A model generated the notes under the pieces. The model was not told the origin of the DNA. It saw only the letters and a list, made by a program, of their open reading frames with translations, and did no database searches. From Sphaerochaetaceae bacterium (GTDB lineage Bacteria; Spirochaetota; Spirochaetia; Sphaerochaetales; Sphaerochaetaceae), in contig JAQQAR010000057.1 in NCBI GenBank assembly GCA_028532765.1, forward strand, positions 1-34,330: 34,330 nucleotides of DNA, in the 5' to 3' direction. The position numbers and the translations under genes are program-made. Below are positions 13,048 to 33,057 of this stretch, in pieces (positions within the stretch are counted from its first letter, which is position 1; every line of letters begins with the position of its first letter).

Positions 13048-13053
13048 AAAAGA

Positions 13054-13109: not shown

Positions 13110-13118
13110 ACATTACTA

Positions 13119-13418
13119 TCAATAATAGTAGAGTGATGTTTCAACGCAGCGTTGCTTAACCGGCAACGTGTCCAATTGTACTTCCTGAAACAACCGAGCA
13201 ACAAACTCAGTAAGTCGAATCCCATACGCCTGGCAATAGATGCCCAGCGTCGTGGTCGTCGGGTAGTTATGGTTTCTCCGTCCCTCTCGTAAGCTGATCG
13301 TACTCTTGCTGAATGGTGTTATCTCTACCAGTCTATCTTGGCTTATCCCACACTCCTTACGCAGTATCTTAAGCGTCCAGGCCACATGAGACGGCATCAT
13401 CTCCAAGATTAACTTCAT
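13119..13418 (-). CDS. XRE-type HTH protein, downstream of repeat
   Basis: About 99 residues with an XRE/Cro-like helix-turn-helix: TLKILRKECGISQDRLVEIT, then STISLREGRRNHNYPTTTTL and a C-terminal helix. The frame continues open for 93 codons upstream of the first good ATG, through the 7-bp repeat. No convincing ribosome binding site precedes ATG 13418; GGAG lies directly against an ATG pair some 15 bases further on, too close to help. Expression may therefore depend on translation from the first XRE gene, or on an in-frame fusion to it. Small XRE proteins of this type are often antitoxins or phage-type repressors, but no partner is visible. Confidence 0.55.
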   Translation of the reverse strand: MKLILEMMPSHVAWTLKILRKECGISQDRLVEITPFSKSTISLREGRRNHNYPTTTTLGIYCQAYGIRLTEFVARLFQEVQLDTLPVKQRCVETSLYYY

Positions 13419-13450
13419 CTGCTGTTCAACAGAAATGCCGTAAATCTTAC

Positions 13451-13720
13451 CTAATGCTGGCTTTTGCTTTCTGTTTTCTGTTGGGTGTTGGGTGTTGGGT
13501 GTTGGCCGCGCGAACCGACCTCTGCGTAGTCCAGAAAGGTCAGCACGTTGAATTTCAGTGCATGACAGAGTCGTAGGATCGTATCCAGCTTTGGTCGCCA
13601 GTCGGGATTTGTGGTGATTTCGGTTATCCACCTGGGATTCGATCCGGTTCGCGCGGATAGCAATGTTTCGTCTACTTTGCTCTCTTGCATTGCCCATACC
13701 AGGGCTGCTTGGAATTGCAT
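13451..13720 (-). CDS. XRE-type HTH protein, upstream of repeat
   Basis: About 89 residues. The N-terminal 65 or so form a small helix-turn-helix domain (FQAALVWAMQESKVDETLLS, ARTGSNPRWITEIT, PKLDTILRLCHALKFNVLTFL). The last 20 residues (HPTPNTQQ and a polar end) are encoded by a 7-bp tandem repeat and look like untemplated tail rather than domain. The start at 13720 is supported by GGAGGT (13728-13733) 7 bases upstream; a second AGGAGGT lies at 13747-13753. It is followed by the second XRE gene in a different frame. Function unknown; a DNA-binding regulator is likely. Confidence 0.6.
   Translation of the reverse strand: MQFQAALVWAMQESKVDETLLSARTGSNPRWITEITTNPDWRPKLDTILRLCHALKFNVLTFLDYAEVGSRGQHPTPNTQQKTESKSQH
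13480..13505. repeat. Heptanucleotide tandem repeat GTTGGGT
   Basis: Three perfect copies of GTTGGGT plus a partial fourth (GTTGG), 26 bases in all. The tract lies inside the end of the first XRE gene and before the second. Seven is not a multiple of three, so each gained or lost copy changes the reading frame. Confidence 0.9.
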
Positions 13721-13978
13721 ATACGTAACCTCCAATTATGTTAGATACCTCCTAAGGGGAATAAGGTTTGGTATTGCTTCAGGGAATTTGGAAAATGATT
13801 TTCTTTATAACGGTAGAGGTGAAATGGTTTTTTCTCCAGTTTTCAGTAAATTTACATTTTGTATGGAATTTGTAAGAAAAAACTGACATGTCTTTGCTTA
13901 TGGCAAGATTCTCTGTCTTATAAGCAGAAGAATCTGACAAATTTACGTCAAAATTGTAAAGAAAATCCTAAATCTGAG

Positions 13979-14007: not shown

Positions 14008-14021
14008 GGATTTCAGCATGT

Positions 14022-14293: not shown

Positions 14294-14350
14294 ACAGAGC
14301 TACCTGTTTCCTACGTTCAAAAAATGAACAAATTGTTCTGACATAACTGT

Positions 14351-14902
14351 ATGCAAAGCGAACCAACAACCAAGGAATTCTCCATCCTATCCTACATTGA
14401 GCAAAACTCAGATGCCACTCAACGAGAGTTATCTGAGCATGTTGGTGTGTCCTTGGGGATGATCAACATTTTGTTAAAGCGTTTGGTTAAGAAGGGCTTG
14501 GTAAAGATAGAGCGACTTCAACCCAACTCAGTAAAATACTTTCTCACTCCACAGGGTATTGCCAGTAAGTTAGAGAGGACTTATGGGTATATCGTGAGGA
14601 CGTATAGGGAGCTCGAGACATATAAAGAAAGAGTTGGCATGGTAGCTCAGCAGATTGCCAAGAAGCATACGGTAGAAACCGTATACTTCTTTGGTCCCAA
14701 CGATGAGTTTGCTGCCATGCTTTCTGCCTTTATCAGGCTGAATAGTAGCGAAGGTCCAGCAATCAAGATTGTTCATGAAGAGAAAGATCTTCTGGAGTAT
14801 TCGAAGAAAGTTCCCATTCTTATTTGGGACCATGAATACGCCGAAGCATTGGAAGGTTCTGGTTATTCGTGGATGAATATTATGCAATCGTTGGATGTCT
14901 AA
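14351..14902 (+). CDS. Winged-helix regulator of polysaccharide locus
   Basis: A 183-residue protein with an N-terminal MarR-like winged helix (residues about 8-75: FSILSYIEQNSDATQRELSE, MINILLKRLVKKGLVKIERL, wing NSVKYFLTPQG). A helical linker (YGYIVRTYRELETYKERVG) and a C-terminal alpha/beta region of unknown fold follow (VETVYFFGPNDEFAAML, VPILIWDHEYAEAL). Proteins of this type stand at the head of exopolysaccharide clusters in several bacteria, including those grouped as EPS-associated MarR-type regulators. No clear ribosome binding site precedes the ATG. It is the first gene of the polysaccharide region and probably controls it; what its C-terminal domain senses is unknown. Confidence 0.75.
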   Translation: MQSEPTTKEFSILSYIEQNSDATQRELSEHVGVSLGMINILLKRLVKKGLVKIERLQPNSVKYFLTPQGIASKLERTYGYIVRTYRELETYKERVGMVAQQIAKKHTVETVYFFGPNDEFAAMLSAFIRLNSSEGPAIKIVHEEKDLLEYSKKVPILIWDHEYAEALEGSGYSWMNIMQSLDV

Positions 14903-16428: not shown

Positions 16429-16430
16429 GT

Positions 16431-17639
16431 TTGAATTCACCTAAGACTATTCCATTTTCTCCTCCTGATATTACCCAAGAAGAGGTAGATGAGGTTGTAG
16501 CAGCTTTACGGTCTGGGTGGATTACTACAGGACCAAGAACAAAGCTATTTGAGAAACAGCTTGCTGAATTCTGTAACACCAGCACTGTATGTTGCTTGAA
16601 CTCTGCAACGGCTGCGCTTGAACTGGCTCTTATCCTTATGGGCATTGGTCCTGGAGATGAAGTTATTACCACTGCTTACACCTATACTGCTTCTTGTAGT
16701 CCTATTGTCCATGTTGGTGCTACACCTGTACTTGTTGATGTATCACCAGGATCCTTCCATATAGACTACGAAGCAGTTGGACGGGCAATCACCAATAAGA
16801 CCAAGGCGATAATTCCTGTCGATCTCGGTGGAGTGATGTGTGATTATGATCTTCTCTTCCAAGTTCTAGAAGAGAAGAAAGCTCTCTACTCACCAAAGAC
16901 GGATGTTCAAGCTGTTTTTGATAGAGTAATGGTTCTTGCTGATAGTGCTCATGCAATTGGTGCAACCTATAAAGGTAAAAAGGCTGGCGAAGTCGCAGAC
17001 TTCACAGCTTTTTCTTTTCATGCAGTGAAGAATCTCACAACGGCAGAAGGCGGAGCTCTTACTTGGAAAGACCGTCCTGGATTAGATAATGATGCGTTGT
17101 ACCACCACCTCCAACTACTGTCATTGCATGGCCAGAGCAAAGATGCGCTTGCAAAAACCAAAATAGGCGCTTGGGAATATGATATTGTTGGTCCTTTTTA
17201 TAAATGCAATATGACCGACATTATGGCTGCTTTAGGATTAGTGCAACTTAAAAGATATCCTGAGATTCTCAAAAGAAGAAAACAGATTATTGAGATGTAT
17301 AATGAAGGGCTGAGAGACTTACCAGTTTCCTCCCTTGTCCACTATACTGATATCTCTGAATCAAGCGGACATTTATACCTTATGAGAATCGAAGGTTATT
17401 CTGAACAACAGCGTAATGAATTCATTCAGAAGATGGCGGAAGCTGGAATTTCTACTAATGTGCATTACAAGCCTTTACCTATGCACACTGGGTATAAGAA
17501 GCTTGGTTTCGACATAGATGACTATCCAAATACCTATAATCAATTTGAAAATGAAGTGACGCTGCCGTTGCATACTTGTTTGGAGGATGAAGATATTAGC
17601 TACCTTCTACAGAGTATTCGAACCCTGCTCTCCCGGTAA
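16431..17639 (+). CDS. DegT/DnrJ/EryC1 family sugar aminotransferase
   Basis: A 402-residue PLP-dependent enzyme that should transfer an amino group to a nucleotide-linked keto-sugar (PglE/PseC/ArnB type). Visible landmarks are SGWITTGPRTKLFE, CCLNSATAALELAL, GDEVITTAYTYTAS, the aspartate in VLADSAHAIG and the PLP lysine in FHAVKNLTTAEGG. The substrate-pocket blocks YKCNMTDIMAALGL and NVHYKPLPMH are present. Translation starts at TTG 16431, with AGGAG (16420-16424) 6 bases upstream. With the PglC-like transferase and an acetyltransferase directly downstream it fits synthesis of an amino or acetamido dideoxysugar for the first residue of the chain. The dehydratase this needs is not in the window. 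Confidence 0.9.
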   Translation: MNSPKTIPFSPPDITQEEVDEVVAALRSGWITTGPRTKLFEKQLAEFCNTSTVCCLNSATAALELALILMGIGPGDEVITTAYTYTASCSPIVHVGATPVLVDVSPGSFHIDYEAVGRAITNKTKAIIPVDLGGVMCDYDLLFQVLEEKKALYSPKTDVQAVFDRVMVLADSAHAIGATYKGKKAGEVADFTAFSFHAVKNLTTAEGGALTWKDRPGLDNDALYHHLQLLSLHGQSKDALAKTKIGAWEYDIVGPFYKCNMTDIMAALGLVQLKRYPEILKRRKQIIEMYNEGLRDLPVSSLVHYTDISESSGHLYLMRIEGYSEQQRNEFIQKMAEAGISTNVHYKPLPMHTGYKKLGFDIDDYPNTYNQFENEVTLPLHTCLEDEDISYLLQSIRTLLSR

Positions 17640-17645
17640 GACCGT

Positions 17646-18329
17646 ATGTTTGTTAAACGATGGGATAAGCTTCCTGCTGATATGCAGAATGATGCAGTAA
17701 GGCCATATTATGAATTACTTAGGAAAAAGGTAGGTTCATTACTGGTTAAAAGAATCTTCGACATAGTCATGTCGATAGTATTACTCATTGTTCTTTCTCC
17801 TGTCTTTTTAATTGTTGCTGTTCTTATAAGATTTGATTCTAAAGGTCCTGTGTTTTATAGACAGGAACGTGTTACCCAATACGGCAGAGTTTTCAAGATT
17901 TTCAAGTTTCGTACCATGGTACAAGATGCCGATAAGATTGGAACACTAGTAACCATCAATAATGATGTTAGGGTAACAAAGGTCGGTCAGAGGTTGCGTA
18001 AGTATCGATTGGATGAGATTCCTCAGCTACTAAACATTTTTGCAGGCGATATGACTTTTGTAGGAACCAGGCCTGAAGTACCTAAGTATGTGGGTTATTA
18101 TACTGATGAAATGAAAGCTACATTGTTGCTTCCAGCAGGAGTGACTTCTAAGGCTAGTATTGAATACAAGGATGAAGAGAAGATCCTAAAGGAAGCAGAT
18201 AATACTGATGAAGTGTATGTGGAGAAGATATTGGTGGAGAAGATGAGGATAAATTGTGAAGCGATTAGAAGCTTTTCCTTCTTTTCTGATTTATTGTTAC
18301 TTCTCAGAACATGTGCTGCGGTACTCTAG
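17646..18329 (+). CDS. PglC-like initiating sugar-phosphate transferase
   Basis: A 227-residue monotopic phosphoglycosyl transferase that places the first sugar phosphate on undecaprenyl phosphate. A single hydrophobic segment (residues about 39-60, MSIVLLIVLSPVFLIVAVLI) is followed by the catalytic family blocks GPVFYRQERV, FKIFKFRTM, LRKYRLDEIPQLLNIFAGDMTFVGTRP and LPAGVTSKASI. It lacks the N-terminal multi-pass region of WcaJ-type enzymes, so it is of the short PglC type. The DE dyad in RLDEIP is intact. It starts the lipid-linked repeat unit that the flippase and polymerase later use. Confidence 0.9.
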   Translation: MFVKRWDKLPADMQNDAVRPYYELLRKKVGSLLVKRIFDIVMSIVLLIVLSPVFLIVAVLIRFDSKGPVFYRQERVTQYGRVFKIFKFRTMVQDADKIGTLVTINNDVRVTKVGQRLRKYRLDEIPQLLNIFAGDMTFVGTRPEVPKYVGYYTDEMKATLLLPAGVTSKASIEYKDEEKILKEADNTDEVYVEKILVEKMRINCEAIRSFSFFSDLLLLLRTCAAVL

Positions 18330-18929
18330 ATGGAAATAATTAATACAACGAATACTCGCGATATCAGGGAAGTCGTAAAAATTCATTTGACTTCATTCCC
18401 TGGTTTCTTTCTTACTTTTCTAGGGAGAGGATTTCTCCGATACTTATATAAAGGCTTCATTCTGCATCCTAATTCTGGTATTCTTATAGCCAAAGATGAA
18501 ATGCGAATTATTGGATTTCTTGCTTATTCTACGGATCTTTCGGGATTTTACTCATTCTTGATCAAACGATATTTCTTTCCATTTGCATGGTATGGATTTC
18601 TTGGAGGTTTACGAAGTCCGAAGAGTCTAGTGAGAATTATCAGAGCCTTGAAGTATCCAAGTGAGGCCAAAACTGATGAGAAGTATGTGGAGATTAGTTC
18701 GATTGCAGTTGCCCCAACCGTGCAAACTAAGGGGATCGGGTCTGGTCTTATCAATCAAATTTGTGAGATGTTCAGAGACTCAGAATTTCAAGTAATTCGG
18801 CTAGAAACTGATGCCGATAATAACGATGATGTAAATGATTTCTATCAGAAGAATGGTTTTCAAGTAGAGAAAGTTTCTGAAACTCCTGAGGGGAGAAGGA
18901 TGAATCATTATGCAAAATTTTTATGGTAG
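18330..18929 (+). CDS. GNAT family acetyltransferase
   Basis: A 199-residue GNAT protein. The acetyl-CoA binding motif A is seen as ISSIAVAPTVQTKGIGSGLINQI (residues about 113-135), followed by RLETDADNNDDVNDFYQKNGF, which is the usual motif B region. The ATG follows the stop codon of the previous gene without a gap. From its position it may acetylate the amino sugar made by the aminotransferase, replacing the left-handed beta-helix acetyltransferase (PglD) of classic pathways. The acceptor is inferred from context only. Confidence 0.8.
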   Translation: MEIINTTNTRDIREVVKIHLTSFPGFFLTFLGRGFLRYLYKGFILHPNSGILIAKDEMRIIGFLAYSTDLSGFYSFLIKRYFFPFAWYGFLGGLRSPKSLVRIIRALKYPSEAKTDEKYVEISSIAVAPTVQTKGIGSGLINQICEMFRDSEFQVIRLETDADNNDDVNDFYQKNGFQVEKVSETPEGRRMNHYAKFLW

Positions 18930-18934
18930 AAATA

Positions 18935-20086
18935 ATGAATAAAATTCTTTTTTTACTTAATGAAAGCCCACCAGATAGAAACAAGTATCTTGCAGAAGCT
19001 CCAATTTTGGTTTCAAATTTTGTATATCCAAATTCTATGGTTCTCAGAGATATGGGAATTGAACAGTATATGGGGATTAGCCGAAAGTATGCTACTTCCA
19101 TAGAATGCACAAATGCACCAATTAAATTTCTGAATATACCAATATTCAGAAATATTTTTGATGTTAAAAATATCTTAATTGCTTATAAAATAATTAATAG
19201 ACACATCAAGGAATTACAAATCGAATATATTCATTGCAATACACCCATAGGTGGATTCTTAGGAAGAGTCTGTGGTAAGCGATGTAAAGTTAAAAAAGTA
19301 GTCTATACAGCACATGGGTTTCATTTCTATAAAGGCGCTCCGCTTATAAACTGGTTGGTATTCTATCCTATAGAGAGGTTTTTAGCGCGATGGACAGACG
19401 CCCTTCTTATAATGAACGAAGAGGATTTTCGGAGAGCTAAAAAGTTTAAGTTGCATAGAAGTGGAATGATTTATAAAGTACCAGGAGTCGGGATAGATTT
19501 AAAAAAAATTCAAGATGCTTCCATTCTTAATGATATCAAAGACGAATTAAAGATTGAAAATGAAAGTGTGCTATGTATATCAATGGGAGACTTGATAAAG
19601 AGAAAAAACTACCAAATTGCAATTATAGCTTTTAAGAAGCTACCCGATAATGTCCATTATTTAATTTGTGGCAAGGGTCCTGAGTTGAAAAATCTTCAAG
19701 AATTAGCTAAGTCACTGGGTATTCAAAATCGGATACATTTCTTGGGATTCCGAACTGATATAGTCAGTTTGCTGAAGCAATCAGATATATTTATTCTTTC
19801 CTCCTTACAAGAAGGGTTGCCACGATCTCTAATGGAAGCAATGGCATGTGGACTGCCTTGTGTTGTATCAAACATTCGTGGGAATGTTGATTTGATTGAG
19901 CATAATTTCAATGGCTACCTGTGTGATCCTAAGAAAGCAGATGATTATGCTAATGCTATTAGCATGTTGGTAAAAGATACAAATCGGCGAGATGCGATGG
20001 GTACCGAAAATAGCAAAAGAATTTTAAGATATGATGTTTCATCTGTTGTGCAAGAGCTAGGTGAGATATATAAGTGTTTGCAATAG
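18935..20086 (+). CDS. GT4 family glycosyltransferase
   Basis: A cytoplasmic or membrane-associated GT-B enzyme of about 383 residues that should add a sugar to the lipid-linked repeat unit. The C-terminal donor domain is clear: SMGDLIKRKNYQIAI, YLICGKGPEL, LGIQNRIHFLGF and the EX7E motif in SSLQEGLPRSLMEAMACGLP. The N-terminal acceptor domain has VYTAHGFHFYKG. An alternative start at 18923 would overlap the acetyltransferase gene by 7 bases; neither has a good ribosome binding site, and 18935 gives the usual beta-strand start. Sugar specificity unknown. Confidence 0.88.
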   Translation: MNKILFLLNESPPDRNKYLAEAPILVSNFVYPNSMVLRDMGIEQYMGISRKYATSIECTNAPIKFLNIPIFRNIFDVKNILIAYKIINRHIKELQIEYIHCNTPIGGFLGRVCGKRCKVKKVVYTAHGFHFYKGAPLINWLVFYPIERFLARWTDALLIMNEEDFRRAKKFKLHRSGMIYKVPGVGIDLKKIQDASILNDIKDELKIENESVLCISMGDLIKRKNYQIAIIAFKKLPDNVHYLICGKGPELKNLQELAKSLGIQNRIHFLGFRTDIVSLLKQSDIFILSSLQEGLPRSLMEAMACGLPCVVSNIRGNVDLIEHNFNGYLCDPKKADDYANAISMLVKDTNRRDAMGTENSKRILRYDVSSVVQELGEIYKCLQ

Positions 20087-20128
20087 AGATGAAATCGTTA
20101 GAACGTTATCATTTGATTAGTATGGTCT

Positions 20129-21073
20129 ATGTACATTGAATCAAAAGACATAAATTCAATCAGTTGGAGTGCTGAGATTGATCTTCTCGCTGATTTAGAA
20201 AAGCTTGCTGAAGCAAGGCTTAATGAATTCGGGATTACAAGAGATATTAGTAAAGAGGCATCTGTCCAATTTGTAAGTTACTCCTTTCGAGAAATCTCAT
20301 CCAACCCCAAGATGCTATTTCAATCGAAGGAATTTACCTGTCCGTCAGGATATGAGAATGCATTCAATACTGTCTGCAGAAAAATTGCGGAAGGTGAAGA
20401 TTTGTCTCCTTTTTTTTCACGAAGATATGATGATCCTTCATTTTCAGATTATCTTTTTAATGATTGGCATATTTATCATTTTCATTTATCTGATCAGTAT
20501 GACTCAGATGGAAAAGCCAGAAGAAGTGGCTATCTTCTTTTTGCGTATATTAATTCTGATGCAGCCTATCTTATTCAAATTTATCCTCATAGTGAAAGTG
20601 ATGTTTTTGCAAAAACTGATATGTTGAGAATAATTAGTTGTAACTGGCCAAATTTGATTTCACGATATGAATTTTCTGGGAAAGCAATTCATACTTTTTC
20701 AGATTCTGCTATTAATGAAATGAGAAAGCATAATATTAATGTGATTACAGAAATCAATCCTGGTAAAGGGCTCCTGCCGATTGGAGGGGGCTCTTCTACT
20801 GATGGATCGCCTACTGAAGCAATTACATACTTATTGAAATTGCAGCGTAAGTTAGCTAATTGCCAAGAGTTGATTATCAATAATACTGAGGAGATACTTA
20901 AGTCTTTGATTGAGCATAAAAGTGGGTCTGTAAATTATGATCTTACTTACGAGTTAATAGGAATTGATAGTCTAGATAAAAAGTTTATCGTGCATGAAAG
21001 GAGTAATTCTATTCAGATAATTATCGAATGGGATAACTTAGATTCACTTCTTATTGAGCCAATTGCGGACTAA
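20129..21073 (+). CDS. Uncharacterised partner of TrlF ATPase
   Basis: A 314-residue protein of no family I can name. Its most striking stretch is DWHIYHFHLS at about residues 112-121, followed by RRSGYLLFAYINSDAAYLIQIYPH. A histidine-rich WxIxHxHL signature followed by an LLFAY strand recurs, as I recall, in uncharacterised accessory-region proteins, and may be a catalytic or metal site. A glycine-rich run LPIGGGSSTDGSP lies near residue 212. No signal peptide or membrane segment is seen. It lies 35 bases before the PHP-ATPase gene, in the same orientation, and shares no obvious role with the sugar genes on either side. I infer it to be part of a two-gene defence-like unit. Confidence 0.6.
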   Translation: MYIESKDINSISWSAEIDLLADLEKLAEARLNEFGITRDISKEASVQFVSYSFREISSNPKMLFQSKEFTCPSGYENAFNTVCRKIAEGEDLSPFFSRRYDDPSFSDYLFNDWHIYHFHLSDQYDSDGKARRSGYLLFAYINSDAAYLIQIYPHSESDVFAKTDMLRIISCNWPNLISRYEFSGKAIHTFSDSAINEMRKHNINVITEINPGKGLLPIGGGSSTDGSPTEAITYLLKLQRKLANCQELIINNTEEILKSLIEHKSGSVNYDLTYELIGIDSLDKKFIVHERSNSIQIIIEWDNLDSLLIEPIAD

Positions 21074-21108
21074 CCATTTCCGTTTAAGCTATTTCAAAGG
21101 AGTTTCCA

Positions 21109-23916
21109 GTGTATCAAGAATATCGAGGTTCAGAATGGAGGAGATGGGAATTGCATCTACACACTCCTCACACGAAGAAAGAAGATAAGTATCTTGGAAA
21201 AACTCCAGAAGAGAAATGGGATAATTTCTATCAGACAATACAAGAGTATGTTGGAGATGGCACAGACCCTACAAAAGCAATCTGTGCTATCGCAATTACG
21301 GACTATCTCTCAATTGATAATTATAAGTTAGTTGAAAAAGAGAAACGGCTTCCTGAATGCGTTAAGCTAGTGCTCCCTAATGTAGAGTTAAGAATCCAGC
21401 CAATCTCAAGCAAGGCACCAATTAATCTGCATTGCATATTTGCCCCTACAATAGTGGACCAATTACAGGATCGATTTTTTTCAAGACTCAAGTTTGAATG
21501 GAACGGCAATGTATATAGTGCTACAAGGTCAGAATTGATTCGACTTGGGCGTTCATATAAATTAGACACCACTCTTGATGAAGACACTGCTTATCGTGAA
21601 GGATTATCGCAGTATGTGATATCACTCGACTCACTTACCAAGATTTTTAAGGACAATAAAGATCTTCGAGATAACACTATTCTTGTAGTATCAAATAGTA
21701 GTGGTGATGGAGCTTCTGGATTGGCTCATCATTATAGCTATTTTGAAGGAGATTGCTCACAATTAGATGCAACCAGACAACAAATCTATCAGGTTTGTGA
21801 TATGATTTTTTCTGGAAATCCATCTGATTTTGAATACTTCTTAGGAATGAAGAGTGATGATGAAAAAACTGTCAAAAAGAAATTGAGGACATTAAAGCCT
21901 TGCATACATGGCTGTGATGCACATACTAATTCTAAGGTTTTTGAACCTGATCAAAAACGATATTGTTGGATTAAGGCTGATCCCACATTTGAAGGATTAA
22001 AGCAAGTTCTCTATGAACCAAAAGAAAGAGTTCGAATTAGTTCAGCATGTCCCGATTTGAAACAGAGTTATCATGTTATTGATAAAGTAGTGATTGAAGG
22101 CAATGAACTCTTTTCTGATACACCCATTTATCTAAACGACAAGCTTACCTGTATTATTGGTGGGAAATCAACTGGTAAATCATTACTGCTTCACAATATT
22201 GCTCTTGCTGTAGATGCGAAACAAGTGGAAGAGAAGACTGAAAAGGCCACAACTAATGTAAAGCACGTTCCTGGACTGACCGTATATTGGAAAGATGGGG
22301 AATGCAGTGAAGATACATCAAATTCTCGAAAAATTGTGTATATACCTCAGACATACTTGAATAGATTAAGCGATCAGGAAGAAGAGACTACAGAAATAGA
22401 TGCTATTGTTCAAGAAATTGTCATGCAGAAAGATGCAATAGCTACACTCTTTACAAAGAAAACAGAAAAACTTAAGCAACTTCGTCAGACAGTGCTGAAC
22501 GCAATTACTGAGTTAATACATTTCTATGAAGAGTATAAAGAGATAAACGCTGCCATTAAAGAGATAGGTGATTCTAAAGGTATCAACACTGAAATCGGAA
22601 GTTTGACTCAGCGTTTTGAGATCCTTTCTTCTGATTCGGAAATAACTGACGATGTAATTCTTGAATACCAGAAACATGTTGAACAAAAGCAAACCCATCA
22701 AGAACTCCAGAAAATACTTCAACAAGATAAAGAGGCTATTCAAGCAATCGAGACCGTTGTAAAAGGAATTAGGTTTCCTGTTCTAGGTGATTCTGAACTA
22801 ACCAAGCAGTTAAACGAATCTGTCTTGCAAGTTATAGATGTTGCTAATAAAGAATGGTCTAAACAGAAAGAACCTCTCTTAAGCTCAATAACACAGAGGC
22901 AAGATGAAGTATCTAAGAGATTGGTAGAATGTGACGAAAAATTAATTCAGCTGAAACCAATTGTTGAAAGTAATCATGAAATTGGAGTGATTTCTAAACG
23001 AATATTAGCTGAAAAAGAGAAGCTTGTAAAAATAGAAGGGCTCATAAAAAAACTAAGTGAAGCAAAAGACTCTTTCCAACATAATCGATCCATTTTGGAG
23101 AATGTCTTTAATGATTATCACCAAGTCTACTCCGATTTTGTTCGAGAAGTAAACGAACTTATTGAAACCAATGACGAAGATTTGGTATTCCTTGTTGAAT
23201 CAGTTTTTCGAAAGAGTCAGTTCTCAAAAAAAATTCTTGAGTTGTTTGATAACCGAAGCATAAATAGATTCCAACCCTTCTCTCTCTCAGATATCAAAGA
23301 AGAGAATTTTCTCAATCAAAAGAATATCTGTGAGTTGATAAAGGCAATTGTTGATCTATCATTACCTATTAAAGCAGGGTATACGAAAGAGTCGATTCTA
23401 AGAGACCTATTCAATGACTGGTACAACATTCACTATATTGTAAAAATGGGGAATGATGGTATCGAAGATATGTCTCCAGGAAAGAAGGCTTTGGTTCTTC
23501 TTAAATTGCTGGTTAGCCTTGCTGAAAGTCAATGTCCGATTCTTATCGATCAGCCAGAAGATGATTTAGATAATCGATCGATTTATGATGAGTTGATTCA
23601 ATTCATAAAGACCAAGAAGATTGATCGTCAGATTATCGTGGTTACTCATAATGCTAACATTGTTCTAGGTGCAGATGCCGAATTGGTTATTGTTGCAAAC
23701 CAAGATGGAAACAGTACCCCTAATAATTCACACAGGTTTGAGTATCGAGGTGGTGCTATTGAAAACAATGAGCCAGTTCGCGATGCTAACCAAGTGATTA
23801 TGAAGGGAGTTCTAAATCAGAAGGGCATTCCGTCTCATATCTGCGAAATACTCGAAGGTGGAGAACGAGCATTTGATCTTCGGAGAAACAAGTATAGGGC
23901 GATTATGAGGTATTAA
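21109..23916 (+). CDS. TrlF family PHP-SMC-like ATPase
   Basis: A 935-residue protein. The N-terminal PHP-type phosphoesterase domain has ELHLHTPHT (residues about 14-22), AIAITDYLS and later CIHGCDAHT with metal-binding histidines and aspartates. An SMC/RecN-like ATPase follows: Walker A GGKSTGKSLLLH near residues 348-359, a long coiled coil (about 440-700), a signature-like MSPGKKALVLLKLL near 787, Walker B CPILIDQPEDDLDN near 808-821, and an H-loop VVTHNANIV near 844. GTG start with AAAGGAG 6 bases upstream. PHP-SMC fusions include the reported single-gene phage defence protein Ppl, which has a similar architecture. It closes its unit with an intrinsic terminator and interrupts the polysaccharide genes. 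An anti-phage nuclease or phosphatase is the best inference. Confidence 0.85.
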   Translation: MYQEYRGSEWRRWELHLHTPHTKKEDKYLGKTPEEKWDNFYQTIQEYVGDGTDPTKAICAIAITDYLSIDNYKLVEKEKRLPECVKLVLPNVELRIQPISSKAPINLHCIFAPTIVDQLQDRFFSRLKFEWNGNVYSATRSELIRLGRSYKLDTTLDEDTAYREGLSQYVISLDSLTKIFKDNKDLRDNTILVVSNSSGDGASGLAHHYSYFEGDCSQLDATRQQIYQVCDMIFSGNPSDFEYFLGMKSDDEKTVKKKLRTLKPCIHGCDAHTNSKVFEPDQKRYCWIKADPTFEGLKQVLYEPKERVRISSACPDLKQSYHVIDKVVIEGNELFSDTPIYLNDKLTCIIGGKSTGKSLLLHNIALAVDAKQVEEKTEKATTNVKHVPGLTVYWKDGECSEDTSNSRKIVYIPQTYLNRLSDQEEETTEIDAIVQEIVMQKDAIATLFTKKTEKLKQLRQTVLNAITELIHFYEEYKEINAAIKEIGDSKGINTEIGSLTQRFEILSSDSEITDDVILEYQKHVEQKQTHQELQKILQQDKEAIQAIETVVKGIRFPVLGDSELTKQLNESVLQVIDVANKEWSKQKEPLLSSITQRQDEVSKRLVECDEKLIQLKPIVESNHEIGVISKRILAEKEKLVKIEGLIKKLSEAKDSFQHNRSILENVFNDYHQVYSDFVREVNELIETNDEDLVFLVESVFRKSQFSKKILELFDNRSINRFQPFSLSDIKEENFLNQKNICELIKAIVDLSLPIKAGYTKESILRDLFNDWYNIHYIVKMGNDGIEDMSPGKKALVLLKLLVSLAESQCPILIDQPEDDLDNRSIYDELIQFIKTKKIDRQIIVVTHNANIVLGADAELVIVANQDGNSTPNNSHRFEYRGGAIENNEPVRDANQVIMKGVLNQKGIPSHICEILEGGERAFDLRRNKYRAIMRY

Positions 23917-23947
23917 AGAACAATCCTAGTTGATTGCCAGTATGTTT

Positions 23948-23981
23948 AATACAGTAGTAATAAATTAAGCACTGTATTTTT
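23948..23981 (+). terminator. Intrinsic terminator after TrlF gene
   Basis: AATACAGT (23948-23955) and ACTGTATT (23971-23978) form an 8-bp stem with a 15-base AT-rich loop, and a run of five T (23977-23981) follows. It lies 32 bases after the stop codon and would end the two-gene unit before the next glycosyltransferase. Confidence 0.65.
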
Positions 23982-24018
23982 ATAAAGAGAGATTTTATGA
24001 CAAAGGGATTTGGATTCT

Positions 24019-25083
24019 GTGGTAGAAAGTAATGATAAGAAAATTGCTTTTTTTCTGGGTAGTCTTGCACGAGGTGGAGCTGAACGAGTAATAAGTAATT
24101 TATCTCAAGACTACGCCAGAAATGGATGGATAACTGAAATATGCCTGCTTCTTTCATATAAAATACAGTATCCTTTGGATGAGTCTACCGATGTAATTGA
24201 TTTTTCTGGAAGCACTACTTCTAGAACTCTACGTATCCCTTATTGGTTAAAAGCAATAAGACAATTCGTAAAAGTAGAGAAACCTGATTATATTATTGCG
24301 TTTACTGCACGAATCAATTTACTTGTAATTTTGGCTTGCATTGGGCTAGATGCAAGAATCATTATTTCTGAAAGAAATGACCCTAGATTTGATGGTAGAG
24401 GACGACTTGTAGATTTTCTAACTAAGTTACTGTATCCGAAAGCTCAATGCCTGGTCTTTCAAACAAAGAAAGCTCAAGAATATTTTAGTGAGAGGATAAA
24501 GAATAAAAGTTGTATTATTCCTAATCCAATATATGTAAGTTGCTTAGCTAGTCCAGTTAAAAAAAAGAAAATAGTGACTATTGGGCGATTAACTCAGCAA
24601 AAAAACCAAAAAATGCTAATCGCCGCATTTGCGAAGATTTTGCCGGCTTATAAAGACTATCAACTCGAAATATTTGGTGATGGTGAGCTTAGAAATGAGT
24701 TAATTGCGTATTCAAAAGAGCTTGGTATTCAGAATAGCGTTATGTTCAATGGCGTTGTCCAAAATATACATGAACGAATATCTGATGCTGAAATCTTTGT
24801 TTTATCATCTGACTATGAAGGTTTGTCAAATGCTTTATTAGAAGCCATGATGATGGGGCTTGCATGTATTTCAACAAGATGTGCAGGAGCTGATGAGTAT
24901 ATCACCGATGGTGAAAATGGGTTATTAATTCCTATTAAAGATGAAGAGGCATTAATCATGGCTTTGAAGAAGCTATTAGATAATACAGATTTTCGTAATC
25001 AAATTGAAAAGAATGCAGCAAACTCAGTAAGTCATCTAGGAGTAAATAATATCTATAAGCATTGGTATGAAATAACATGTTGA
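24019..25083 (+). CDS. GT4 family glycosyltransferase
   Basis: A GT-B glycosyltransferase of about 354 residues. FFLGSLARGGAERVISNL near the N-terminus is a typical GT4 start. The C-terminal domain shows TIGRLTQQKNQKMLIAAF, LEIFGDGEL, GIQNSVMFNGVV and the EX7E motif in SSDYEGLSNALLEAMMMGLA. The start is uncertain: GTG 24019 has AAAGGGA some 10 bases before it, while TTG 24010 lies too close to the same element and the ATG at 23998 is out of frame. It follows the TrlF terminator, so it may need its own promoter in the short interval 23917-24018. Sugar specificity unknown. Confidence 0.88.
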   Translation: MVESNDKKIAFFLGSLARGGAERVISNLSQDYARNGWITEICLLLSYKIQYPLDESTDVIDFSGSTTSRTLRIPYWLKAIRQFVKVEKPDYIIAFTARINLLVILACIGLDARIIISERNDPRFDGRGRLVDFLTKLLYPKAQCLVFQTKKAQEYFSERIKNKSCIIPNPIYVSCLASPVKKKKIVTIGRLTQQKNQKMLIAAFAKILPAYKDYQLEIFGDGELRNELIAYSKELGIQNSVMFNGVVQNIHERISDAEIFVLSSDYEGLSNALLEAMMMGLACISTRCAGADEYITDGENGLLIPIKDEEALIMALKKLLDNTDFRNQIEKNAANSVSHLGVNNIYKHWYEITC

Positions 25084-25155
25084 TTTTTTCGAATTTTATT
25101 AATCCTATCAGCATACCGTCAGCACTTGATAAGTTCAAATTTTGGAGCAACCGAA

Positions 25156-26010
25156 TTGAAGATAATTCAGTATGTAAGATTTTTCTTATTTAAAGCATTC
25201 CCTATTAGTATAATAAAATTGGAATTTTATAGAAATGCGAAATATTGGCCAAATTTACGGAATCCCCAAACACTTAATGAAAAGTTGACGTGGTTGAAGT
25301 TGAATTGGAGAGATGACCTTGCAAAACAATGTGCTGATAAGTCTATGGTTAGAAAATATGTTGCAGACCAAGGATTGTCAGATATTCTTTTGAAATCTTA
25401 TGGAATTTTTCATCATCCAGATGATATTGATTTCTCTTTACTCCCTGATGAATGTATGATTAAAGTGTCACATGGATGTGGGCAAAACATTCATTATATT
25501 AAGGGTCATTCAGGTGTTTTGGAAATCAAGAGAAAACTACAAAAGTGGATAAAAGAAAGTCATTATGTTGACTCTTTAGAATGGATTTATGAAACAAAAA
25601 GGCCTTCTATTCTGATTGAAGAGTTCATTAAGACGGATCACTTGGCCCCTCCAAATGATTATAAGATTTTTTGTTTTAATGGAAAACCAGCTTTTCTTTT
25701 TGTTGCTTCCGACAGAGGAAAGAATACAACAAAATTTGATTTCTTTGATTTGCAATGGAATCATCTTCCAGTTAGAAATCACTACCCAAATAGCAATCAA
25801 ATAATTAAAAAACCTGAGAAATTTAAAGAAATGCTAAAATATGCTTCAATTCTTTCAAAGCCTTTTCCACAGGTACGAATAGACTTCTATTACGAAAAGG
25901 GAAAAATATATTTCGGTGAGATGACTTTTTTCCATTTTTCTGGTAATCAACCGTTTGAGCCAGGAGAGTGGGATTTGATTCTAGGAGAACAATTCGTTCT
26001 ATCTTTCTAA
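25156..26010 (+). CDS. TupA-like ATP-grasp protein
   Basis: About 284 residues of the ATPgrasp_TupA family, which is found in capsule and teichuronopeptide-type clusters and is thought to join an amino acid or similar group to a sugar acid by an ATP-dependent ligation. Landmarks are NPQTLNEKLTWLKLNWRDDL, ADKSMVRKYV, MIKVSHGCGQNI, SILIEEFI, PNDYKIFCFNGKPAFLFV, QVRIDFYY and the end EMTFFHFSGNQPFEPGEWDLILG. A TTG start at 25156 is preferred because GGAG (25144-25147) lies 8 bases before it; an upstream TTG at 25126 would add ten residues. It may decorate the polysaccharide with an amide-linked substituent. Confidence 0.82.
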   Translation: MKIIQYVRFFLFKAFPISIIKLEFYRNAKYWPNLRNPQTLNEKLTWLKLNWRDDLAKQCADKSMVRKYVADQGLSDILLKSYGIFHHPDDIDFSLLPDECMIKVSHGCGQNIHYIKGHSGVLEIKRKLQKWIKESHYVDSLEWIYETKRPSILIEEFIKTDHLAPPNDYKIFCFNGKPAFLFVASDRGKNTTKFDFFDLQWNHLPVRNHYPNSNQIIKKPEKFKEMLKYASILSKPFPQVRIDFYYEKGKIYFGEMTFFHFSGNQPFEPGEWDLILGEQFVLSF

Positions 26011-26088
26011 AATTTGTTTATTGATGACTATGAAGTGTTTTAAGCAATTAATAAATTTTTCTATCTAGTAACTATAGGGAAGGGTGAA

Positions 26089-27294
26089 TTGAGAAGTATT
26101 CAAAATAAACAAAAATACTCGATGCAGTCAATATTTACTTTTCTCATGATTCTTGTTGCATTTTTGTTAAAAAATTATAGGATAGTATTATATTCATTGG
26201 AAGTTGTCTATATCGGGATGATGTTGTCCTTCGCAATTAGAACCAAATCCCCAATGAATATTTTTTGGGGATGGGCAATAGCGTTGTTTATTTTGAGTTT
26301 GTGTTCTACAGTCTATTCGGTTGATGTATTTGAATCACTCAAATTAAGTATCAATTTATTAAAAGGACTACTCATTGCTATTTGTTTGCAAGTATTTCTA
26401 ATGGATAATAAAGAAAATATAGATCGTGTATTAAGATATATCATAATATCAGCACTGATAACGGTGTTAGTTGTAGTTATCAGAACACCAATAAATCAGT
26501 ATGGAACTAGCCGATTAGGAAGTGTTATACGACTCAATCCAAATGATTTAGGAATGAAATTGGCTGTGGCTGTTATTATTACATATTTTTATGGTTTAAT
26601 AAAAAAGAAAGGTTTCTATCTAGTTTTAACAGTAATATTCCTATTATTCTCATTGTTGACAGGATCTCGCAAGGTTTTAATTTTTATAACTGTAGGTGTC
26701 ATAATTGTAACCTTTTTTTCTATAACAGAGATCGGGAAATTTATACGATTTTCAATCATTAGTTTCATGTTCATTTTAGTTGTTGCACTTCTGGTAATGG
26801 AAACAGAATTTTTCTATGAGATTATTGGATACAGGTTTTATCAACTTCTAAATGCATTGGTTTTAGGAAAGAATGATATTGATTCTAGTACCGCAACCAG
26901 ATTATTCTTGATAGATCAAGGGAAACTTCTTTTTTATAAAAGGCCGTTATTTGGATATGGTATAGGCACATTTGGAATATTGAATAACTCTTCTTATGCG
27001 CACAACAATTTTATTGAGATACTTGTGGGAATGGGCTTGTTAGGATTTACTATTTATTATTCAATTTATTTTTTAGTTATTAGAAGATTATTCTTTAAAA
27101 TTAAATTATACCCAATTGCTATTTTAGCTTTTTCTTTGTTTGTTCCCCTAATTATTGTTGAATATGGTGTAGTAACATACTATACAGAATTTTACTTAAT
27201 CCTGTTATCAATTTTTTATTACATATCAGGTAATAATTATGGACAAGTTCATGATCAAACTGTAAACAAACTAGACGAGAATAATAATGAATAG
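26089..27294 (+). CDS. wzy: Wzy-like O-antigen polymerase/ligase
   Basis: A 401-residue membrane protein with about ten to eleven hydrophobic segments and a larger loop in the C-terminal half. It has the features of the O-antigen polymerase/ligase (Wzy_C) group: GTSRLGSVIRLNPNDLGMKLAV in the middle, FSLLTGSRKVLI, and RPLFGYGIGTFG followed by SYAHNNFIEILVGMGLLGF. TTG start at 26089 with AAGGGTG just upstream. It should join lipid-linked repeat units at the outer face of the inner membrane, working with the flippase that overlaps it by 8 bases. Sequence alone cannot fully separate polymerase from ligase, but the context favours polymerase. Confidence 0.82.
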   Translation: MRSIQNKQKYSMQSIFTFLMILVAFLLKNYRIVLYSLEVVYIGMMLSFAIRTKSPMNIFWGWAIALFILSLCSTVYSVDVFESLKLSINLLKGLLIAICLQVFLMDNKENIDRVLRYIIISALITVLVVVIRTPINQYGTSRLGSVIRLNPNDLGMKLAVAVIITYFYGLIKKKGFYLVLTVIFLLFSLLTGSRKVLIFITVGVIIVTFFSITEIGKFIRFSIISFMFILVVALLVMETEFFYEIIGYRFYQLLNALVLGKNDIDSSTATRLFLIDQGKLLFYKRPLFGYGIGTFGILNNSSYAHNNFIEILVGMGLLGFTIYYSIYFLVIRRLFFKIKLYPIAILAFSLFVPLIIVEYGVVTYYTEFYLILLSIFYYISGNNYGQVHDQTVNKLDENNNE

Positions 27295-28765
27295 TAAGAG
27301 AACCGTCTTGGTTAATTCTGTCTTTTATACTTTTAGTTCTTTTTTGGTAAAAGCTTTTGGTTTTTTTCTTCTTCCTGTCTATACAGTTTATCTTTCACCA
27401 GTTGACTTTGGTATTACTAATCTTGTTCAGTCCTTTTTAAATGTTGCTACTTTTATCGTCTCTTTTTCCCTATATGCAGCTATTCCCCGTTTCTATGTGG
27501 AATATCAAGAAGACCAAGCGAGAGTAAAATCTTTTTTTGGATCAATAATAATCTTTACTTTCATCATGGGTCTTTTATTTTTAGGTGTAAATATCTTGTT
27601 TTCCAAGGTAATTGTAAGGTTCCTCTTTAAGGGCATTCCTTTCTATCCCTATGTGCTAATTGCACTGATTACGCTACTATTTCAAAGTCTTCATACAATT
27701 CATGAAAATATTTTGAAAGCTATACAGAAAGGAAAATTCCTTGCTACACTGAGCGTAATAGTCTTTCTTCTACAGACAGGTATTACTATAGTATTTGTTG
27801 TAATTTTGAGATTAGGACCTGTTGGAATACTTCTTTCACAAGCTATTATAAGCCTTTTATATAGCATTTTTATGATATTTGATTTAAGAAAACGAAGTTT
27901 ACTTTCGTTCTCCTTTGATTGGAAGCTTCTTAAACATGCGCTATCCTATTCAATCCCAATTATTCCCCATAATTTATCGACTCATGTTGCGTCCTTTATT
28001 TCAAAGATTTTTCTCAATAACTCTGCTACTCTTGCATCTGTTGGTTTATATGGTATAGCAATGCAATTTGGAAGCTTGATCGACCTATTTCAGACTTCTG
28101 TTAATAAAGCTTTCACTCCTTGGTTTTTCAATGTGTTACATGATGGAAAGGGGAGTTCTGTTATTAACCATATGGAATTTGTAAAAATACTTTTATCGTT
28201 TTATTCAATCATCTATTTAGGAATTGGTCTCTTTTCTCAGGAAGTTATCCTTCTAATGATGCATAGTCGCTACGTTCTAGCTTGGAAAGTCGTTCCAATT
28301 CTTGTAGTTGCTTTCTCTGTTAAGTCTATTTATTACTTCTATGTTAATATTCTTTTTTACCACCAAGAAGCAGCAAGAAAAATATTCTATGCATCTTTGA
28401 CGGGAAGTTTTCTTGATATTTCACTCGCAGCAATATTAATTCCACAGTTTGGGATGTATGGTGCTGCATTGTCCTTTCTTATTGCAAAGGTTTGTATAGT
28501 GGTATTTGTAGTGTTGCTTTGTAGGAAGTATAATCAAGGTATGTTTGATGTGCTTGGAATGATACGGACTATTCTTCCTAGTATTGTGTTAATTGGAATA
28601 GGCATAATATTTAGTTATGTAAAATACGATACTGTTTTTAACTGGGGTAATTTTTTGTATAAGTGTGGGATTGTAGGTGTTTATTTATCTATTCTGTTAA
28701 TTCAGTATAAATCAGTCATATATAAAATAATTGAGCAATGGAGAAATAAGAAACAGAAATGCTAA
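27287..28765 (+). CDS. wzx: Wzx-like polysaccharide flippase
   Basis: A 492-residue inner-membrane protein of the MOP/polysaccharide transport superfamily with about 14 hydrophobic segments. The N-terminus (NSVFYTFSSFLVKAFGFFLLPVYTVYLSP and DFGITNLVQSF) and the central SIPIIPHNLSTHV are typical of Wzx-type proteins. It moves the undecaprenyl-linked repeat unit to the outer face for polymerisation. It overlaps the polymerase gene by 8 bases and the next gene by 7, so the three are translationally linked. Confidence 0.88.
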   Translation: MNSKRTVLVNSVFYTFSSFLVKAFGFFLLPVYTVYLSPVDFGITNLVQSFLNVATFIVSFSLYAAIPRFYVEYQEDQARVKSFFGSIIIFTFIMGLLFLGVNILFSKVIVRFLFKGIPFYPYVLIALITLLFQSLHTIHENILKAIQKGKFLATLSVIVFLLQTGITIVFVVILRLGPVGILLSQAIISLLYSIFMIFDLRKRSLLSFSFDWKLLKHALSYSIPIIPHNLSTHVASFISKIFLNNSATLASVGLYGIAMQFGSLIDLFQTSVNKAFTPWFFNVLHDGKGSSVINHMEFVKILLSFYSIIYLGIGLFSQEVILLMMHSRYVLAWKVVPILVVAFSVKSIYYFYVNILFYHQEAARKIFYASLTGSFLDISLAAILIPQFGMYGAALSFLIAKVCIVVFVVLLCRKYNQGMFDVLGMIRTILPSIVLIGIGIIFSYVKYDTVFNWGNFLYKCGIVGVYLSILLIQYKSVIYKIIEQWRNKKQKC

Positions 28766-29916
28766 AATGCTTACTACGGAAAATACTTTATACTGGAATC
28801 AAATGTTTCCAATGGGTTATTCAGAGAATTTGTGGCGTTAAGAAAAAGAAAGTTGTATTTAAGAGTTTCAGCGGAAAATCATACTCAGATAATCCTCGAG
28901 CGATTTCTGAGAAGTTACATGATATGGCCCCTAGCTATGAAATTGTTTGGCTTTTTAATGATCCAAAAAGTAAGGAAGCCATTGTACCCAAATATGTGAA
29001 ATGCGTTAAAAATAATTCTATTAGTACCTTTTATGAATTGGCAACTGCAGGAATTTGGGTTGATAATTTTAATAAATCATTGTGGACTTATAAATCAAAC
29101 AAGCAAATATACATCCAGACTTTTCATGGGGACAGAGGTTTTAAAAAAGTGCTATATGATGCATGGCCGAATGGTAGAAGGCCTTGTCCTGTACTTGAAG
29201 GAAAGATTTGTGACTATGCAGTAGTCGGATCAGAATACGGAGAATCGACTTTTAAAACTGCAATGCATTATAATGGCCAATTTATTAAAACAGGTAGTCC
29301 TCGATGCGATAAATTGTTACGAAATGATCCGATAGAAATTGATTCAATCAAAAGTAGATTAAATATCTCTTCAGAAAAACATATATTGTTATATGCTCCA
29401 ACATTTCGTCAAAAAACTTCTGTATCAAAGGAATTACAGGAAATACAAGGTATCAACATTTCTAGTACATTGGAGAAATTGAACGAAATTTCAGGTAAAG
29501 AATGGGTGATGCTGGTTAGAGCGCACGCTGCTTCAAGTGGGTTAAAAGGGTTCCAAGACAACCCTTCTGTTTATGATGTTACTGGTTATGAGGATATGGC
29601 TGATTTATTATTGATCTCAGATATTCTAATTACTGATTATTCTACAAGCATTGGGGATTATGCTTTAATGAAAAGGCCTTGTTTCCTCTTTCAAGATGAC
29701 TATGAGGATTATGTAAAATACGATCGAACTTTTTATTTTGACATTCATTCTTCTCCTTATTTAATTGCAAAAAATCAAGTTGAACTGGAGGCTTTATTGT
29801 CAGATCTGCCATATTATGACTATGAGGATTACTGTAATAGAATTCTTGAATTTTATGGGACTCATGAAACAGGGAGAGCTTCAAAAGCTGTCTGTAATGT
29901 AATCATTAGTCAATAG
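28759..29916 (+). CDS. TagF/TagB-like CDP-glycerol-type transferase
   Basis: A 385-residue protein of the CDP-glycerol:poly(glycerophosphate) glycerophosphotransferase family (Glyphos_transf). Landmarks are [19 protein letters not shown], the motif [15 protein letters not shown] near residues 115-129, [42 protein letters not shown] and the conserved [26 protein letters not shown]. Such enzymes use a CDP-alcohol and build or add a phosphodiester-linked unit. No CDP-glycerol synthetase (TagD) is in the window. The genes just downstream should make a CMP-phosphonate, a close analogue of a CDP-alcohol, so this protein is a candidate phosphonate transferase. That link is inference. Confidence 0.85.
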
Positions 29917-29939
29917 CTAGCTTACTAGGAAATATTATA

Positions 29940-31241
29940 ATGAATAAAATTATCTACATCGCACTCAGTGCAGATTTTCTTCACTCTGGCCACATGGCCG
30001 TATTGAAGAAGGGATCGGAATTGGGATCTGTAGTAGTTGGATTACTCACAGATCACGCCATGGCTAGTTATAAGAGATTGCCATTTCTTACGTACGAGCA
30101 ACGTAAAGCAATTGTAGAAAATATAAAAGGTGTTGTGGATGTAATCCCACAAGAGACACTTGATTATACAGATAATCTTATCAAACTCAAACCTGACTTT
30201 GTTGTACATGGAGATGACTGGAAGTCCGGTATCCAAAAACATGTTCGAGATAATGTGATACAAACTCTATCAAAATGGGGTGGACAATTAGTTGAGATTC
30301 CCTATTCCGATGGGCTTTCGGCGAGGTCGATGAATGAAGCACTTACTGAATATCTAAATACTCCTGATATTAGGAGATCAATGCTTCATCGTTTGCTGGA
30401 AGCTCAAGATATTGTTCGAATTCTTGAAGTTCATAGTGGATTATCTGGGTTGATAGCAGAAAAAGTGAAAGTATCCAATGGGAAGGAAGACCGGGAATTC
30501 CATGGGATGTGGATAAGTAGCCTTACTGATTCTACATCAAAGGGAAAGCCTGATATTGAATTGGTTGATCTAACTTCTCGATTGCAAACAATCAACGATG
30601 TTCTTGAGGTTACTACGAAACCAATCATCCTTGATGGAGATACTGGTGGCCAAGTAGAGCATTTTCCTTACATGGTTCGTACCCTTGAACGGTTAGGTGT
30701 TTCTGCTGTAATCATTGAAGATAAGAAAGGCTTAAAGAAGAATTCCTTATTTGGTACTGAAGTTGAGCAGACAAGAAGTACCATTGAAGAGTTCTGTGAG
30801 AAACTCTCCGTTGGAAAGAAGGCACAATGCACCAAGGATTTCATGATTATTGCAAGAATTGAAAGCCTAATCCTAAAAGCTGGAATGGATGATGCTATTA
30901 AACGCGCAAAAGCATATATTTTGGCTGGTGCAGATGGTATTATGATTCATAGTAAAGAGAAAAACCCAGATGAAGTATTAGAATTTTTAAAGATTTATGA
31001 TGGTTTTGAAACCAAGGTTCCAGTTGTAGTGGTCCCTTCAAGTTATAATACAATCACAGAGGAAGAACTGATTAATGCAGGAGCTTCGATAGTAATATAT
31101 GCAAACCATATGCTCAGGAGTGCTTATCCTGCAATGGTTAAGACAGCTGAATCAATCCTGCATAATCATCGATCTAAAGAAGCTGATGAGTATTGTATGC
31201 CAATCAAACAGATTTTAAACCTCATTCCAGGAGGTAACTGA
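29940..31241 (+). CDS. Cytidylyltransferase-PEP mutase fusion
   Basis: A 433-residue two-domain enzyme. Residues about 1-140 form a cytidylyltransferase-like domain ([19 protein letters not shown] with the HxGH motif, then [11 protein letters not shown] and a late SARS). Residues about 150-433 form phosphoenolpyruvate mutase, which makes the C-P bond of phosphonopyruvate; key blocks are [10 protein letters not shown], the signature [18 protein letters not shown] and ADGIMIHSK. Mutases with this N-terminal domain are known in phosphonate loci. AGGAAAT precedes the ATG. The stop and the next start share a base (TGATG), so the phosphonate genes are tightly coupled. Confidence 0.92.
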
Positions 31242-32347: not shown

Positions 32348-33057
32348 AAGCGCTGATATTGAATTCCGGAATTGGTTCAAGAATGGGTTCTCTTACGAGT
32401 GATAAACCGAAATGCATGGTTCCATTGAGTGAATCAGAGACTATCCTGTCAAGGCAGATTAAACAATTGCTTGAGGTCGGAGTTTCAGATTTTGTGATTA
32501 CCATTGGTCCATTTGGCGATTTGATTCCAAACTATATCCAGGAAGTCTATCCAGATATTTCAGTAATCTATATTCGAAATAATTTATATGCTGAAACCAA
32601 TTATATTTATTCCATGTATTTGGCAAGAGATTCTATTCAAGAAGAGCTCATTTTACTGCATGGTGACATTGTAATGGAAAAAGGTGTGCTGGTTGATATA
32701 TTGGAGGATTCGAGGGAAAATCTAGTCGTTGTTGATAAGAGTGCTGTTCTTCCTGAGAAAGATTTCAAGTGCGCGATACATAATGAATTTGTTCAAGAGA
32801 TTGGAGTTAGTCTCACTGTTCAAAGTCCTCAAGTTTTCTTATTACCTGTATATAAACTGTCGAAGAAGTTTATGCTTGATTGGTTGAAGGAAATTGAACG
32901 TTTTGTTTCAGAAGGAAAAACCAAAGTATATGCAGAAAACGCGTTCAATACAATTTCTGATACAATGAATCTTGAAATCTTTGATATTTCCGGTGACTTC
33001 TGTATGGAAGTTGATACCCTTGATGATTTGTCAGTTGCAATAAAAAGCGTATTATGA
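32344..33057 (+). CDS. Nucleotidyltransferase, likely phosphonate cytidylyltransferase
   Basis: A 237-residue sugar-nucleotidyltransferase-fold protein (LicC/PntC-like). The signature LNSGIGSRMGSLTSDKPKCMVPL is at residues 4-26, followed by the metal aspartate region LLHGDIVM and late acidic residues in MEVDTLDDL. The closest known roles are choline-phosphate and 2-aminoethylphosphonate cytidylyltransferases, which activate a phosphate or phosphonate as a CMP ester. PntC in treponemes is fused to the aminoethylphosphonate transaminase, but here the protein stands alone and no transaminase is present. Its ATGA overlap with both neighbours places it firmly in the phosphonate cassette. Substrate is inferred from context. 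Confidence 0.82.
   Translation: MKALILNSGIGSRMGSLTSDKPKCMVPLSESETILSRQIKQLLEVGVSDFVITIGPFGDLIPNYIQEVYPDISVIYIRNNLYAETNYIYSMYLARDSIQEELILLHGDIVMEKGVLVDILEDSRENLVVVDKSAVLPEKDFKCAIHNEFVQEIGVSLTVQSPQVFLLPVYKLSKKFMLDWLKEIERFVSEGKTKVYAENAFNTISDTMNLEIFDISGDFCMEVDTLDDLSVAIKSVL

Follow-up and report, generated by a model that had tools for sequence, protein, structure and literature searches.

The window, by which we mean the whole 34,330-nucleotide stretch of Sphaerochaetaceae DNA analysed here, carries two short open reading frames on its minus strand, one running from an ATG at 13720 to a stop at 13451 and the other from an ATG at 13418 to a stop at 13119. A tandem heptanucleotide repeat lies in the linker between their domains. 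The features considered below are as follows.

13451..13720, minus strand: upstream half with an N-terminal HTH-like domain, 89 aa (ATG 13720; weak HTH_26 match, strong Shine-Dalgarno sequence)
13119..13418, minus strand: downstream half with a C-terminal XRE-type HTH domain, 99 aa (ATG 13418; phase 2 relative to the upstream half)
13479..13505, minus strand: CCCAACA tandem tract in the interdomain linker (27 nt, 3.86 copies, 100% match)
13729..13733, minus strand: Shine-Dalgarno GGAGG of the upstream half (pairing -10.5 kcal/mol)
13645..13656, minus strand: inverted-repeat arm 1, 12 bp, within the upstream half (repeat search, covariation)
13506..13517, minus strand: inverted-repeat arm 2, 12 bp, directly next to the repeat tract (repeat search, covariation)
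14351..14902, plus strand: divergent neighbour, a winged-HTH (MarR-like) gene that opens the polysaccharide cluster (Pfam)
16431..34151, plus strand: polysaccharide cluster with DegT aminotransferase, sugar transferase, O-antigen ligase/polymerase type, flippase and PEP mutase genes (Pfam)

As originally stated, 302 nt (phase 2) separate the two start codons, and the downstream frame is indeed open for 111 codons 5' of its own ATG, through the repeat. By arithmetic, the gain of one copy or the loss of two would place both halves in a single frame, with a product of 202 or 195 residues, respectively. The position proposed for the repeat held in part: the tract does lie between the coding domains, but the upstream frame ends 28 nt beyond it and not inside it. 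The sequence GTTGGGTGTTGGG occurs at two overlapping sites in the window (0 in 100 shuffles) and was not found elsewhere in the 3.16-Mb assembly. An integron attC site was considered and set aside: written as GTTGGGT, the heptamer resembles an R box, a likeness that the other repeat units do not share.

Translation signals at the two starts are very unequal. Shine-Dalgarno pairing amounts to -10.5 kcal/mol at the first ATG of the window and -1.7 at the second, which bears out the claim that the second gene has no good ribosome-binding site of its own; among six relatives, pairing is -10.5 at the first ATG in every case and between -1.5 and -3.6 at the second. An independent promoter or start for the second gene would have spoken against the original prediction, and neither a promoter-like site on the minus strand in the interval 13720-13418 nor a good ribosome-binding site was found. 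The assignment of two XRE domains fared less evenly. In the fused form, the C-terminal domain matches Pfam HTH_3, HTH_26 and HTH_31 (XRE/Cro-CI HTH), with a score of 30.1 bits for HTH_26 in a fused relative, above the cut-off of 22; the C-terminal frame of the window scores 22 bits against a cut-off of 22, and the 99-aa form beginning at the second ATG scores 17.2. As part of a fusion, the second half fits an HTH model well; the first half remains a weak match (HTH_26, 15.3 bits versus 22; profile match 3b7h_A, E 4e-4). No model covering the whole two-HTH protein was found, and the structure model of a fused relative (L131, 5 rows) had a pLDDT of 45, too poor for use. Elsewhere in the window, at 1382-2750 on the plus strand, lie two overlapping genes that we take to resemble an AbiEi/AbiEii toxin-antitoxin pair.

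Copy number and frame state in relatives

A DNA search of 26 genomes of the genus, including that of the window, gave matches in nine and a full gene in six, the window among them. Five of these six close relatives are split, namely the window (3.86 copies), G020 (9.86), S. halotolerans 4-11 (G003; 11.86), G025 (13.86) and G023 (28.86). The remaining one, Sphaerochaeta sp. S2 (G018), has 4.86 copies, exactly one above the window, and encodes a 200-aa fusion, as predicted for the gain of one copy. G020 carries the same species label as the window, and copy number therefore differs between same-species-labelled assemblies (3.86 versus 9.86). A protein search of 139 family genomes gave matches in 15. 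G022 was found to have 3.57 copies of CCCAACA and to be fused, G001 to carry a different heptamer, AACCCTC (13.3 copies, fused), and one gene of G004 to carry (CA)14, also fused. The unit in G017 is 8 bp long, CCCCAGAA; in G017 and G005 the contig starts within the repeat and the state cannot be read. Altogether, nine genes have complete repeat tracts, of which four are fused and five split. An invariant copy number would have refuted the proposed switch, and the observed range is 3.57 to 28.86 in the seven genes with a measurable CCCAACA tract. Collapse of repeats in short-read assembly is not the source of this variation in G020, G025 and G023, because these assemblies consist of one or two contigs.

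The repeat units appear to be special to this linker. Three consecutive CCCAACA units occur in seven of the 139 family genomes, every time in the two-HTH gene. Four types of unit were observed (7, 7, 8 and 2 bp); none is a multiple of three, and all shift the frame. For the same reason, each tract encodes one cyclic peptide in all frames. A census covering the window together with 20 further segments (365,242 bases in all) looked for perfect arrays with a period of 1-12, a length of 20 nt or more and at least three copies. It returned 12 arrays, all 12 of them in these linkers, and no comparable array was found outside the linkers in the window and flanks so covered. The segments had been selected around two-HTH genes, and the census is not genome-wide. 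In G025 a second heptamer, AACAGAA, stands immediately past the CCCAACA tract (L083 9491-9512). The tree of C-terminal domains is weakly resolved, with good support for 3 of its 14 inner branches, which leaves the count of independent repeat origins unsettled; the four unit types are an observation.

Two-domain genes without a repeat are continuous in five of six cases; the sixth, in the draft G018, is frameshifted. This suggests that fusion is likely ancestral, and an ancestral fused protein whose linker turned repetitive is the simplest reading. A profile search of 392 genomes across the phylum returned 93. Those from beyond the genus had no more than one generic, near-threshold XRE match each, and on this evidence the two-domain family seems to be confined to the genus. 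Weak matches in G104, G013, G117 and G126 were excluded from the counts of two-domain genes. Several further observations concern gene content. In G018 a second two-domain copy, broken by stops, is located near the fused one (L081 2739-3056). In G024 approximately the first 14 and the last 13 codons remain beside the same winged-HTH gene as a deletion remnant (L009 1561-1640). In three genomes, G004, G017 and G025, the two-domain gene is followed by a small gene (L088 10280-10579; L091 324-626; L095 7287-7562), and the two of the three that were scanned against Pfam gave no match.

Inverted repeat and genomic neighbourhood

A perfect inverted repeat accompanies the tract. It is 12 bp long in the window, 13 bp in five relatives, 17 bp in G001 and 18 bp in G022, extends over 151-157 nt of the upstream half, and its second arm abuts the heptamer tract in all eight testable genes. 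Codon shuffles never matched the observed length (0 of 300 in each of three genes tested). No such inverted repeat was found in the six repeat-less genes or in the G004 gene with the CA repeat; the repeat-less gene of G004 has an unrelated 9-bp pair. Both sides are altered in 5 of 18 pairs, which none of 500 shuffles equalled, and sliding the partner abolishes the signal, although this covariation derives from two lineages only, G022 and G001. Both RNA and DNA folding yield the stem (z -2.2 and -3.8, respectively). That the inverted repeat aids slippage at the adjacent tract is no more than a guess. We also considered a DNA-inversion switch and rejected it: all eight genes with the inverted repeat are in a single orientation and no inverted allele was found, with the reservation that the similarity search favours that orientation. 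Read in reverse, the segment between the arms would acquire a stop in six of six cases. A role of the arm as an operator was considered and set aside as well: of 10 genomes, seven contain GCCGCGCGAACC, and in those seven it is confined to the two-HTH gene or the broken version of it.

The repeat genes are associated with polysaccharide genes. Polysaccharide-type neighbours, defined as the winged HTH together with a sugar transferase, DegT aminotransferase, CapD-like or NusG-like gene, flank 11 of 11 repeat genes versus 0 of 6 repeat-less genes. Some repeat-less segments are short (G018p, 6.2 kb), and the 11 and 6 rows are related and do not represent 17 independent events. The winged-HTH gene itself lies beside the repeat gene in all eight long-flank assemblies except G004, where it was not found. 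The opposite flank is variable, with an ABC sugar transporter in G000, G020, G023 and partly in G018 and other genes elsewhere, which indicates that the association lies with the polysaccharide side.

Two parts of the cluster deserve separate description. The leader preceding the winged-HTH gene (14113-14345, plus strand) is strongly conserved in nine relatives; it contains two stems, TTCGAAGG...CCTTCGAA and a hairpin, ATACCG...CGGTAT, of which the hairpin is changed on both sides in G001. A search of Rfam with 12900-16500 gave a single match at E 0.2, far below the cut-off, and the leader has no Rfam match. It is possibly an antitermination leader, because NusG-like genes are close by in some relatives. 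At the far end (29940-34151, plus strand), Pfam identifies a PEP mutase with a cytidylyltransferase domain, and the genes after it we take, without a search, to encode phosphonopyruvate decarboxylase, a nucleotidyltransferase and alcohol dehydrogenase. A phosphonate-decorated polysaccharide is a possible product.

Selection on the two halves and the proposed switch

Both halves are under purifying selection, as judged by their substitution patterns. In the downstream half (87 codons), dN/dS is 0.04-0.27 in nine of ten split-split pairs, and variable columns fall at codon positions 1, 2 and 3 in the numbers 17, 6 and 37. On this comparison the downstream half is kept by purifying selection despite being split off in five of the six close relatives, and a half left untranslated for long should not show such a pattern. 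The tenth pair, with eight substitutions, has a dN/dS of 1.28 and counts against the switch. Fourfold sites differ at 45 of 521 in the upstream half versus 134 of 504 in the downstream half, and downstream-half distances clash with species labels (dS 0.42 for G000-G020, 0.03 for G000-G025). Taken together, these results point to partly different histories of the halves or to an extra nucleotide-level constraint on the upstream one, and the clash with labels points to parts having been moved by recombination.

Those features of a simple-sequence contingency (phase-variable) locus that sequence can show are present: a non-triplet repeat inside a reading frame, copy number that varies between close relatives, both frame states and a gene under selection. 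We consider it probable, though by no means settled, that we are dealing with one two-HTH gene whose mutable non-triplet linker repeat toggles it between split and fused forms, most likely regulating the adjacent surface-polysaccharide cluster. Gain or loss of units, presumably by slipped-strand mispairing, would shift the reading frame of the downstream domain. When the halves are in frame, the product would be a single protein, its two putative DNA-binding domains joined by a Pro/Thr/Asn/Gln-rich linker; out of frame, the N-terminal domain would carry a short tail, and the C-terminal domain would be poorly made or absent. The fused or split regulator would alter control of the neighbouring polysaccharide cluster, its most likely target in the absence of any target data, and a population would be a mixture of cells with and without the fused regulator. 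This chain from slippage through a split or fused product to altered cluster control is the best supported one, although the rate of switching and the final two steps are inferred. The sequences themselves show the repeat, its variation in copy number, both states in nature, selection on each half and the association with the cluster. Slippage itself, reversible switching in culture, binding to DNA and the view that the fused form is the active one are likewise inferences, and there are no DNA-binding, read-level or culture data; the weak N-terminal HTH match is a further counterpoint. The 27-nt tract of the window is probably slow to switch, and the split state may be close to fixed there. 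The observation behind the original prediction is confirmed and its interpretation largely supported, within the limits set by the lack of read data, the absence of demonstrated switching within a culture and the short tract of the window. It had missed the probable ancestral fusion, the lineage-specific units, the inverted repeat and the link to the polysaccharide cluster.

Other readings of the same data have to be weighed. The two halves might be a coupled operon of two separate proteins, with the repeat a tolerated spacer, the second protein made by re-initiation or from a weak start of its own, and fusion incidental. The predominance of split forms among close relatives, with the second half still selected, fits this, and the stop/start overlap in G023 and the 8-nt gap in G020 could permit re-initiation without fusion. 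Yet a Shine-Dalgarno sequence is absent at the second ATG in six of six, stop-to-start gaps vary (-4, 8, 28, 28 and 32 nt), and the 14 codons before that ATG vary by position as 2, 1 and 4, a read-through-like pattern resting on few sites; with four relatives fused and five of six repeat-less paralogs continuous, we regard the coupled operon as unlikely. Neutral expansion in a decaying gene, for which the frame is irrelevant, would equally produce the 4 of 9 fused alleles, since a near-random frame is expected from copy-number drift, and the G024 remnant and the broken G018 copy are in keeping with decay. It is, however, difficult to reconcile with purifying selection on both halves, with the lack of a comparable array elsewhere in 365 kb and with different non-triplet units at the same site across lineages, and we give neutral decay little credence.

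Least credible to us is that linker length between the DNA-binding domains is the main effect, as with HsdS repeats, split alleles being by-products. Each unit set does encode the same peptide in all three frames, and linker length varies among fused forms, but units in multiples of three would suffice without splitting and none were seen, and close relatives are mostly split. A type I specificity subunit (HsdS) as such was rejected for want of an HsdS-type Pfam domain match. Returning to the switch between split and fused forms, the fact that different non-triplet units have taken each other's place at one site suggests that selection favours the ability to switch and not a given sequence. 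It is possible, if rather doubtful at present, that the linker is a dedicated switchable device combining lineage-specific non-triplet repeats with a covarying inverted repeat, the latter perhaps an aid to slippage. Copies modulo 3 would then set the split or fused state and copy number the domain spacing, making a multi-state random regulator of polysaccharide.

Comparison with known systems

Repeat-driven phase variation is familiar in enzymes, adhesins and methyltransferases, mostly of pathogens. Frame switching by repeats is known; our limited literature search found no case in which a repeat joins and separates the two HTH domains of a regulator linked to polysaccharide and in which one unit has replaced another between lineages. 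In the open-access papers searched, Sphaerochaeta and 'phase variation' were not found together, and there was one passing co-mention with 'tandem repeats'.

In neuO, the capsule O-acetyltransferase gene of E. coli K1, a coding heptanucleotide AAGACTC yields the full-length product only if the copies are divisible by 3, and 3 to 53 copies occur across 64 genomes, with 42 of the 64 out of frame (PMC13001214). The two genes, neuO and that of Sphaerochaeta, share a 7-nt coding repeat, out-of-frame alleles and a link to surface polysaccharide. Whereas neuO is an enzyme gene with a 5' repeat and plain on/off switching, the repeat of the Sphaerochaeta gene links two HTH domains or keeps them apart, and its unit is lineage-specific. 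Heptanucleotide tracts are likewise tied to phase-variable surface structures in hmw1A/hmw2A of Haemophilus influenzae, where they are placed upstream of the genes, in promoters (PMC2651432), whereas the Sphaerochaeta tract is within linker coding sequence. A known DNA-specificity protein, a methyltransferase subunit, offers another parallel: changes in repeat length truncate or restore the protein, and central amino-acid repeats alter specificity too. In that protein a poly-G tract is at work alongside a distinct in-frame LEAT repeat, whereas in Sphaerochaeta one non-triplet repeat would serve both roles, in an XRE-type protein beside polysaccharide clusters. Finally, the C-terminal domain of the fused form matches XRE/Cro-CI HTH regulators, from which the protein differs in its tandem domains and repeat linker. 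Here the repeat appears to act on a regulator, by joining or separating two putative DNA-binding domains, and it offers a simple natural system for testing how a repressor gains from having a second DNA-binding domain and from the distance between the two.
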